Made by a program: the position numbers and the translations under genes. From a virus: a DNA stretch of 36,825 nt. Positions 3,461 to 12,175 of this stretch are shown piece by piece. The DNA is taken from IMG/VR virus record IMGVR_UViG_3300046557_000559, positions 1-36,825 of that record. One strand, 5' to 3'. Numbering within the stretch: position 1 is the stretch's first letter; every line of letters starts with the position of its first letter. The notes beneath the pieces were generated by a model. It was not told the DNA's origin. It did no database searches and worked only from the letters and a program-made list of their open reading frames with translations.

Positions 3461-3531
3461 CCATGCGCGAACGCGATGCCGCTACGCGACCGCGAGTATC
3501 AGTCGCGAACACCATGCGCGAACGGTATTCT
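3461..3531. promoter_or_regulatory. Operator-like repeats and -10 element before the replication gene
   Basis: A 13-bp direct repeat CCATGCGCGAACG occurs at 3461-3473 and 3512-3524. Related TCGCGAAC lies between them, as does the imperfect dyad CGCGAGTATCAGTCGCG. TATTCT at 3526-3531 is a candidate -10 for the rightward replication transcript; no good -35 is seen. The arrangement suggests operators shared by divergent promoters. Confidence 0.45.
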
Positions 3532-3631: not shown

Positions 3632-4492
3632 GTGGGAATCCGCCTGATCGTCGAGGTGCTCAACAGCGCGCCCGAAGCCTTGACGCACCGGGAGAAGCTC
3701 CTCCTCGTAGTCCTGGCCGAGGACGCCAACGACGACACCCGCATCACGTGGAACAGCGTGGAGCGTCCCGAGGTGCTGCGCGGCGCGAAGCTCAGCCGCG
3801 CCCAGCTCTACGCCGTGCTCAAAGCGCTCGCCACGAAGGGCGTCCTGGAGCGGCTGTCGTCCGGCCAGAAGAACGGCACCGCCAAGTACAAGATCCATAC
3901 CTTCGAGACACCTCAGTGTCAGGAATTCCCTGACACTGACGAACCGTCTCAGTGTCCCAATTCTCCTGACACTGACACCTCTCAGTGTCCCGAATTCCCT
4001 GACACTGACGCGAACGGTCAGTGTCAGGAAAACGCGGACACTGAACCGTCTCAGTGTCAGGGATTCCCTGACGTCAGTGTCAGGGAATCCCTGACCCCTA
4101 CCCCTCTTAACCCCTCCTCTACTACCCCCTCAGCTAGCAAGCAGGAGAGCCCGGCCTCCGATCCCGGCTACGGCATCCCCGACGATGCCCGCCCGCTCGT
4201 CGATGGCATCACCGCAGCCGGCGTCATCGTCCGCTGGCCCTTCAAGGGCAACGCCTGGTTCCCGGTTCTCGCCCTCATCGCCAAGAGCGGCATCCCCGCC
4301 ATGGTCGACCACGCGATCAAGGCCGCCTCCCGGACCCGCGTCGAGTCCGCCAACTACTTCCTCAAGGGCTGGGGCGAACTCCCCCCGCTCCCTCTCCCGG
4401 GCACCGAGCGGCCCCAGCTGCGCGCCGTCTCCGGCGGCTACCAGCCCTGGACAAACCCCGAAGACCAGAACGCCTACTACGACTCCCTGTAG
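3632..4492 (+). CDS. Winged-helix replication initiator with internal iterons
   Basis: 286 residues, GTG start preceded by AGAGAAG. Residues about 15-85 form a winged-helix domain (LTHREKLLLVVLAEDAN, then LSRAQLYAVLKALATKGVLERL). Residues about 90-150 are a low-complexity linker with repeated units like SQCPEFPDTD, dictated by the DNA repeats. Residues about 185-260 are a helical C-terminal domain with FPVLALIAKSG and SANYFLKGWGELPP, resembling DnaD-like or lambda-O-like helicase-loading regions. A DnaC-type ATPase follows 8 bases later, as in lambda O-P. Initiator function is inferred from architecture and context. Confidence 0.75.
   Translation: MGIRLIVEVLNSAPEALTHREKLLLVVLAEDANDDTRITWNSVERPEVLRGAKLSRAQLYAVLKALATKGVLERLSSGQKNGTAKYKIHTFETPQCQEFPDTDEPSQCPNSPDTDTSQCPEFPDTDANGQCQENADTEPSQCQGFPDVSVRESLTPTPLNPSSTTPSASKQESPASDPGYGIPDDARPLVDGITAAGVIVRWPFKGNAWFPVLALIAKSGIPAMVDHAIKAASRTRVESANYFLKGWGELPPLPLPGTERPQLRAVSGGYQPWTNPEDQNAYYDSL
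3913..4096. repeat. 27-bp dyad/iteron array, probable replication origin
   Basis: TCAGTGTC occurs at 3913, 3949, 3982, 4018, 4051 and 4074. The inverted GACACTGA ends at 3939, 3975, 4008 and 4044, making four 27-bp dyads. The first has perfect 11-bp arms, TCAGTGTCAGG and CCTGACACTGA, around AATTC. Starts are 36, 33, 36, 33 and 23 bp apart. A pyrimidine-rich stretch follows (about 4092-4133). The array sits inside the initiator gene, the layout of the lambda origin in gene O. Confidence 0.75.
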
Positions 4493-4500
4493 GAGCACCC

Positions 4501-5199
4501 ATGGACCACCTCACCCCCGTCGACCTCACCAACTGGCAGGCCATCCTCACCGCCCACCAGCTCACCCCCGACGCGATCAACGACATCACCGGCGACCCCT
4601 ACGACCGCCCCGCCACCGCCCGCCGCGAAATCGACCACGCCAACCACGACATCCCGTTCATCTACCAGCGAGCCAACGCCGACCACCCCGACGTCCAGCA
4701 CTGGGCCGACAACCTCATCGCCACCACCCGCGCCCACTCTGGCCGCCGCATCGTCCCCGCCATCACCACCGGCCGCTCCCTCCTCCTCCTCGGGCCGACC
4801 GGCGTCGGGAAGACCTACCAGGCGTACGGCGCGCTGCGGCACCTCGCCCCCACCGGCATCAGCCTCCGCTGGACCGCCACCTCCAGCGCCGACATGTACG
4901 CCGCCCTCCGCCCCCGCGCCGGCATCGACTCCGAGACCGAGTTCCGCAAGTACGCCCACGCCCCGCTGCTCCTCGTCGACGACCTCGGCGCCGCCAAGAC
5001 CAGCGAGTGGACCGAAGAGATCAACTTCCGCTTGGTGAACCACCGCTACGAGAACCAGCTGCCGACGCTGATGACCTCCAACGTGCTGCCCAAGCAGCTC
5101 GCCGACCGCGTCGGAGACCGCGTCGCATCCCGGTTGATCGAGATGTGCGACCGGGTCGTCATCACCGGCGACGACCGCCGCCGCCAGGCCGCCGCATGA
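4501..5199 (+). CDS. DnaC-like replicative helicase loader ATPase
   Basis: 232 residues, AAA+ family. Walker A is GPTGVGKT near residue 98, Walker B is LLLVDDLG near 156-163, a sensor-1-like LMTSN lies near 190 and an arginine-finger-like VASRLIEM near 210. This is the DnaC/IstB arrangement, and the N-terminal 90 residues would contact the helicase or initiator. It follows the initiator gene by 8 bases (GGAGCACCC before ATG) and overlaps the next gene by ATGA. The likely job is to load the host DnaB helicase at the origin inside the upstream gene. Confidence 0.88.
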   Translation: MDHLTPVDLTNWQAILTAHQLTPDAINDITGDPYDRPATARREIDHANHDIPFIYQRANADHPDVQHWADNLIATTRAHSGRRIVPAITTGRSLLLLGPTGVGKTYQAYGALRHLAPTGISLRWTATSSADMYAALRPRAGIDSETEFRKYAHAPLLLVDDLGAAKTSEWTEEINFRLVNHRYENQLPTLMTSNVLPKQLADRVGDRVASRLIEMCDRVVITGDDRRRQAAA

Positions 5200-11309: not shown

Positions 11310-11390
11310 ATGCTCGCCACCTGTGATCACGAGTGGACCCAGTGGAGCGGCAAACCGCGCTGCCGCAAATGCGGGGCGACGCAGGGCTGA
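11310..11390 (+). CDS. 26-residue zinc-knuckle peptide
   Basis: The ATG at 11310 is preceded by GGGAGG at a good distance. The peptide reads MLATCDHEW...PRCRKCGATQG, a Cys-x2-His plus Cys-x2-Cys arrangement able to bind one zinc. Its stop overlaps the ATG of the phosphotransferase-like gene as TGATG, so the two are translated together. Peptides of this type are common and usually missed in Streptomyces phages and plasmids. Function unknown. Confidence 0.65.
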   Translation: MLATCDHEWTQWSGKPRCRKCGATQG

Positions 11391-12175
11391 TGCGCACACT
11401 CTGGGCCGGCCTGCCCGCACCGGTCCGCGCCGCCGTCACCGCCCACACCGGACCCGTCACAGCGGCGGCCGACGTTCCGTACGGCTACAACTGCCAGTTC
11501 GCCGCCACCCTCGACACGCCCGGCGGCGGGGTGTTCGTCAAGGGCGTGGCTGGGTACTCCTCCGGCCACGACCAGGAGGAAGCGACCGCACCCCACACCG
11601 CCGGCGCCGGGCCCGCGCTCCGCTGGCGCACCGAGGCCGACGACTGGGACCTGATCGCCTTCGACGCGGTCCCCGGCCGGCACGCCGACCTCGGCCCCGG
11701 CTCACCCGACCTGCCAGCCGCCGCCGAACTCCTCACCACCGCCAGCCTCCTGGACGCCCCGGGCCTGACACTCCCCGCGTGGGCAGACCAGTGGGCCGCC
11801 GTCGCCACGCCCGACGAGCGCGCCCTGCTCACTGGCGCCCAGCTGGTGCACGGCGACATCAACCCCCACAACCTGCTCGTCAACGGCGACCGGGCGTGGC
11901 TGGTGGACTGGGCGATGCCGTCCCGGGGCCCCGGCTGGGCGGACACGGCGGAGGCGGCGGTCCGGCTGATGGAGGACGGGCACACCGCCGCCGATGCCTG
12001 CCGCTGGGCGGACACGGTCCCGGCCTGGCGCGCGGCAGACCCTGACGCCATGGCCATGTGGGCTGAGGTGCGCTGCCGGGCGCTTGCTGCTGCTGTGGGC
12101 GAGCACGGGGCGCGGCACAGCAACGGGCGACACCGGGCGCTGGCGGCAGAGGTTCGGGCGGCAGTGCGTCGGTAG
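11390..12175 (+). CDS. Aminoglycoside-phosphotransferase-like (APH fold) kinase
   Basis: 261 residues from the ATG at 11390, preferred over GTG 11333 because it overlaps the stop of the coupled zinc peptide. The catalytic loop LVHGDINPHNLLV near residues 150-162 and the metal-binding LVDWA near 169-173 match the APH/choline-kinase family (HGDxxxxN and the IDW-type Asp). The N-terminal lobe is short, with FVKGV as the candidate ATP lysine. It is shorter than many APH enzymes (about 260-300). Whether it modifies an antibiotic, a nucleotide or a host molecule cannot be told from sequence. Confidence 0.82.
   Translation: MRTLWAGLPAPVRAAVTAHTGPVTAAADVPYGYNCQFAATLDTPGGGVFVKGVAGYSSGHDQEEATAPHTAGAGPALRWRTEADDWDLIAFDAVPGRHADLGPGSPDLPAAAELLTTASLLDAPGLTLPAWADQWAAVATPDERALLTGAQLVHGDINPHNLLVNGDRAWLVDWAMPSRGPGWADTAEAAVRLMEDGHTAADACRWADTVPAWRAADPDAMAMWAEVRCRALAAAVGEHGARHSNGRHRALAAEVRAAVRR

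Follow-up and report, generated by a model that had tools for sequence, protein, structure and literature searches.

Palindromic repeats that cluster inside the gene of a putative replication initiator may serve the encoded protein, the transcript or the DNA itself, and the question at this locus is which of these they serve. The window analyzed, a stretch of 36,825 nucleotides, is a virus record from a 70%-GC phage, with relatives among viral contigs as well as named Streptomyces genomes. We consider it very probable that the replication origin of the phage lies inside its initiator gene, as the initial annotation had proposed. The array and the tract that follows it are conserved as DNA, the geometry of the last dyad pair is nearly constant, and these elements occur in one initiator family beside loader or helicase genes. 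A predicted winged helix, a DnaC-like neighbor and dyads that are kept while the peptide changes all support this reading.

Layout of the dyad array

Six dyads are found at 3913-4100 within the initiator open reading frame (3632-4492, plus strand), in the part that encodes a linker. All units share a 17-bp core, GTC-N11-GAC, which in the first four is extended to 27 bp as TCAGTGTC...GACACTGA (dyad 1, 3913-3939, core 3918-3934; dyad 2, 3949-3975, core 3954-3970; dyad 3, 3982-4008, core 3987-4003; dyad 4, 4018-4044, core 4023-4039). Dyad 5 (4051-4072, core 4056-4072, GTCAGGGATTCCCTGAC) and dyad 6 (4074-4095, core 4079-4095, GTCAGGGAATCCCTGAC) lack the outer right arm, have 17-bp cores that are perfect over 8 pairs, and form a pair with 23 bp from start to start. 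A search of the 36.8-kb window confirmed the six copies of TCAGTGTC (3913, 3949, 3982, 4018, 4051 and 4074) and four inverted copies of GACACTGA (3932, 3968, 4001 and 4037) reported initially, and neither sequence occurs elsewhere in it. The start-to-start steps, initially given as 33-36 bp with a last one of 23, are 36, 33, 36, 33 and 23. The description of the units as 27-bp palindromes applies to units 1-4 and not to units 5 and 6, and the statement that all are in phase with the codons holds for five of the six, since unit 6 lies in another frame. The array is the GC minimum of the window at the 100-, 200- and 250-bp scale, and GC3 falls there from ~0.95 to ~0.5. Upstream of the initiator gene, at 3465-3523, we also noted three operator-like GCGCGAAC/TCGCGAAC repeats that are not conserved in the relatives.

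The array is conserved as DNA

Chance and peptide sequence both fall short of accounting for the array. GTC-N11-GAC is expected 0.25 times per shuffled gene and is seen six times, and 20,000 synonymous recodings, which kept the initiator peptide and drew on the phage's own codon usage, reached at most five dyads and four 8-bp arms, versus six and ten observed. In comparisons among 13 members of the family whose units are laid out alike, codon identity at identical residues was 94.5% in the array versus 73.5% in the winged helix, with residue identity in the opposite order (65% versus 87%). The codon ACT, which makes up 3% of Thr codons, is fixed or nearly so at residues 102, 114, 125 and 137. 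The last unit is out of frame with the others in all tabulated relatives of the window type, one further unit is out of frame in the relative L016, and the Eklok dyad is translated in two frames, as RSGIPDTT and GRESRTQ.

A dyad that persists under a changing peptide, the pattern foreseen in the initial annotation, is what the relatives L016, Eklok and L033 display, and the stretches with lower protein identity have the higher codon identity. The suggestion that protein and DNA are under joint selection is upheld for the DNA, where the codon tests demonstrate it, and not for the peptide: the linker looks unconstrained and disordered, so the demand on the protein side may be no more than an uninterrupted reading frame.

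An asymmetric tract behind the terminal dyad pair

The last dyad is followed at once by a 39-nt tract without G (4094-4132, plus strand), a candidate opening element in a conserved place. The next-longest run in the window that lacks G or lacks C measures 24 nt, and a G-free run of 39 nt was attained in one of the 20,000 recodings. For 32 of 38 distinct arrays of the window type, no G- or C-free run in the entire locus is longer than one that starts no more than 70 nt from the last dyad, a count of related loci and not a tally of independent events. The corresponding place in SV1, Picard, Eklok and the majority of their relatives is occupied by ~15-21 nt that lack G, followed by 26-32 nt that lack C. 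The strand asymmetry of a lambda-type origin is present in the 39 nt without G of the window; an AT-rich element beside the array is not, positions 4100-4149 being 58% GC. AT-richness and strand asymmetry, which are joined in lambda, come apart here, and this suggests that asymmetry is the property kept in a GC-rich genome. GC skew, used as an origin marker, shows no turn at the array (~4 kb).

Almost every relative read has a final step of 23 bp, though the other steps vary between lineages; L046 departs from this, and the units of L028 are changed. The initial annotation had overlooked this conservation as well as the tract behind the array. Common descent explains part of the agreement in the terminal pair among Streptomyces phages, and the agreement of the 23-bp step with lambda may be coincidence. 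A G-quadruplex on the other strand is not claimed, because the peptide alone gives at least four C runs, the number conserved in most relatives, in 757 of 20,000 recodings, and because two C runs at most are left in L015, L029 and L030.

The initiator and its neighboring gene

The initiator gene encodes 286 aa from a GTG start and was recognized by replication-initiation and O-like PHROG matches and by its relatives. A structure model built from 33 sequences, which took the place of a first model with a pLDDT of 43, predicts a winged-helix DNA-binding domain at aa 1-90 (3632-3901, plus strand; block pLDDT 75-90), a disordered linker over the array-encoded stretch at aa 95-179 (pLDDT below 50) and, again with confidence, a helical C-terminal domain at aa 181-250 (4172-4381, plus strand; block pLDDT 85-92 over most of it). 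The C-terminal domain, a candidate contact for the loader, is common to SV1-type initiators. In profile searches the initiator was matched by O-like PHROG profiles at 4e-5, and matches in a viral library included a putative replication protein O (1.3e-4). A fold search of the PDB returned winged helices, one of them in a Rep-DNA complex, as weak matches (E 0.02 or worse), and a PDB sequence search with the initiator gave nothing useful. Prediction and profile matches together suggest an O-like architecture of N-terminal winged helix, linker and C-terminal domain; the original description of a winged-helix initiator thus appears sound, in keeping with both the predicted fold and the phage replication-initiation and O-like family matches. 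The DnaC-like helicase-loader gene said to follow it was also borne out (4501-5199, plus strand; 232 aa), with matches to phrog_50 at 1e-33 and to Pfam IstB_IS21 at 1.8e-11.

Other genes seen in the window include an adjacent WhiB-like pair (48-419 and 416-769; Pfam 2.6e-16 and 2.2e-7), an anti-repressor-like gene with a Bro-N domain (1978-2727) and a phosphotransferase-family-like gene with an APH match of 2.5e-5 (11333-12175).

Comparison with known origins

The locus resembles lambda O/ori-lambda/P in having iterons within the initiator gene, in the similar length of its dyad-like sites, in a last step of 23 bp (the annotated lambda iterons start at 39034, 39054, 39078 and 39101) and in the helicase-loader gene that comes next, which is P in lambda and DnaC-like in this phage. 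The AT-rich tract after the last lambda site is highly strand-asymmetric (PMC5043065), the two iterons adjoining it suffice for unwinding (reviewed in PMC7466680), and certain lambdoid phages have six sites (PMC7466680). The two systems differ in site sequence, in the number of sites (four in lambda, six here) and in the tract, which is AT-rich in lambda and not in this phage; homology of the initiator to lambda O was not detected by hhalign (probability 0.2%). Of the lambda layout with a different repeat, as initially proposed, the site array inside the initiator gene, the strand asymmetry and the adjacent loader gene were recovered, and AT-richness and homology to lambda O were not. Since neither of these two was found, we class the locus among in-gene origins, as a variant, and do not call it a lambda origin. 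Most likely, the in-gene plan known from lambda is here adapted to a GC-rich genome.

The Streptomyces phages SV1, Picard, ToastyFinz and Eklok have six dyads in the same place, a last step of 23 bp and an asymmetric tract after the last dyad, and their initiators are related to that of the window mostly via the C-terminal domain (hhalign 98.9%, 1.4e-17). They differ in dyad flanks (GGGCCGGAATCCGGCCC or GGTCGGGAATCCCGGAC), in a tract that is partly C-free and in the next gene, which is not DnaC-like. The stretches of these four genomes that were read carry no origin annotation, and the literature matches listed, drawn mostly from outside subscription journals, included none on an origin in these phages. 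The array thus offers a testable candidate origin for a sizeable group of Streptomyces phages, the isolated SV1 and Picard included.

The oriL of Bacillus phage SPP1 also has its origin repeats inside an initiator gene, gene 38, and this gene set includes a loader and a helicase as well (PMC6316719). The likeness is one of layout, with repeats within the initiator gene and a loader gene close by, and the AT-rich unwinding element and the second origin, oriR, are SPP1's own. In pSLA2, the iterons are located within rep1. The central replicon rep1/rep2 of Streptomyces linear plasmids of this type has iterons and a helicase gene next (PMC13152386); host group and iterons are shared with the phage, whereas the partner is a helicase gene in the plasmids and a loader gene here and in most relatives. 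A plasmid search with the initiator found no pSLA2-type plasmid, its one weak plasmid match being of another type.

Proposed mechanism and alternative explanations

By analogy with lambda O-ori-P, the phage origin would work as follows. Winged-helix dimers would bind the six 17-bp dyads, each half serving as one recognition site. Dyads 5 and 6, 23 bp apart, together with the 39-nt G-free tract would make up the core for opening the duplex and holding one strand, a role suggested by the sufficiency of the two tract-adjoining iterons for unwinding in lambda. The C-terminal domain, tethered by the array-encoded disordered linker, would recruit the DnaC-like loader, which in turn would place the host DnaB helicase.

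Among 86 distinct units, the left and right arms are without covariation (5.64 of 8 pairs within their own units versus 5.67 when re-dealt), a result compatible with a dimer bound to duplex DNA but not with a stem; a hairpin or cruciform reading is rejected on the same ground. The halves all resemble a single half-site with the approximate sequence TCAGnGTC(AG or CC)GRA. The window, SV1 and Eklok types are all 17-bp dyads with a similar center (near GGAATCC) and different flanks, and the dyads of L016 keep GTCCCG and not the common center. Eklok and L033, which have the same array plan and different dyad flanks, provide natural material on the co-change of initiator and site.

The dyads could instead be operators, bound by the initiator only for control of its own operon, of copy number or of partition, with replication starting elsewhere, and a DNA-binding protein whose binding sites lie in its own gene would present an identical picture. 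We regard this as improbable, given that the array is far from the gene start (281 nt into the coding region), that a conserved strand-asymmetric tract follows it, that the next gene is a loader or a helicase, and that the in-gene arrays of lambda and SPP1 are origins (PMC7466680, PMC6316719). Less probable still is an action in the mRNA, where hairpins and a C-rich, G-poor Rho-loading site would control transcription or translation of the replication operon. The inverted arms are able to pair in RNA and the 4094-4132 tract is C-rich, but the arms of the 86 units do not covary, and the tract of the SV1 and Eklok lineage is mostly C-free, a misfit to Rho loading. That the array is a mere tandemly duplicated coding repeat making a flexible linker, as the repeated peptide and the differing unit number among relatives might indicate, is effectively refuted by the tests on codons and frames, with the rare codon ACT held at four array positions, dyads that stay while peptides change, a last unit out of frame and a linker predicted to be disordered.

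Exchange and spread among relatives

Around the putative in-gene origin, the winged helix, array and tract stay together, whereas the C-terminal domain and the next gene vary. At least five kinds of C-terminal region were distinguished by eye behind these three elements (the window type, L016, L029/L030, L051 and L077), that of L016 with a match to a DnaD-like loader family. The next gene is DnaC-like in the window, L015 and L029, DnaB-like in L016, and of the phrog_8924 or phrog_22143 type in L030 and L051, with a weak helicase-loader match in L030; L057 combines a window-type C-terminal domain with a helicase that was read by eye as DnaB-like. A broader and tentative proposal, to which we give slightly less than an even chance, is that in 70%-GC Streptomyces phages an asymmetric tract, G-free or in the other lineage partly C-free, replaces the AT-rich unwinding element, and that winged helix, dyad array and tract form one origin cassette, in which the 23-bp terminal pair is retained and behind which C-terminal domains and loader genes are swapped.

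When viral contigs were scanned blindly for the DNA pattern of the last dyad pair alone, 34 were returned, and 14 of these were already known from the protein search; all 20 others have the pair in the same kind of initiator gene. The scan revealed no satellite or decoy copies of the origin, the initiator gene being present in each of the 20 new contigs, and a scan with a strict SV1-type pattern returned no matches.

Several more distant loci were also observed. Phages Raleigh (L020, 2428-3378) and Darolandstone (L022, 2398-3348) have the C-terminal domain in common and another N-terminal domain, with no dyad array inside the gene, whose product is annotated as 'mucin-2'. A related winged-helix frame, 36% identical over 93 aa, is present in the Pseudonocardia alni plasmid pPaSha2 (L023, 3001-3530) where the record lists no gene, and GGGGCCC repeats at 22-bp steps lie behind it. 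In Frankia canadensis (L032, 5001-5948), a remote initiator-like gene (28% in its N-terminal part) is followed by an apparent DnaB-like gene, and the GGGTCAT...ATGACCC repeats visible there may represent the same plan with another dyad.
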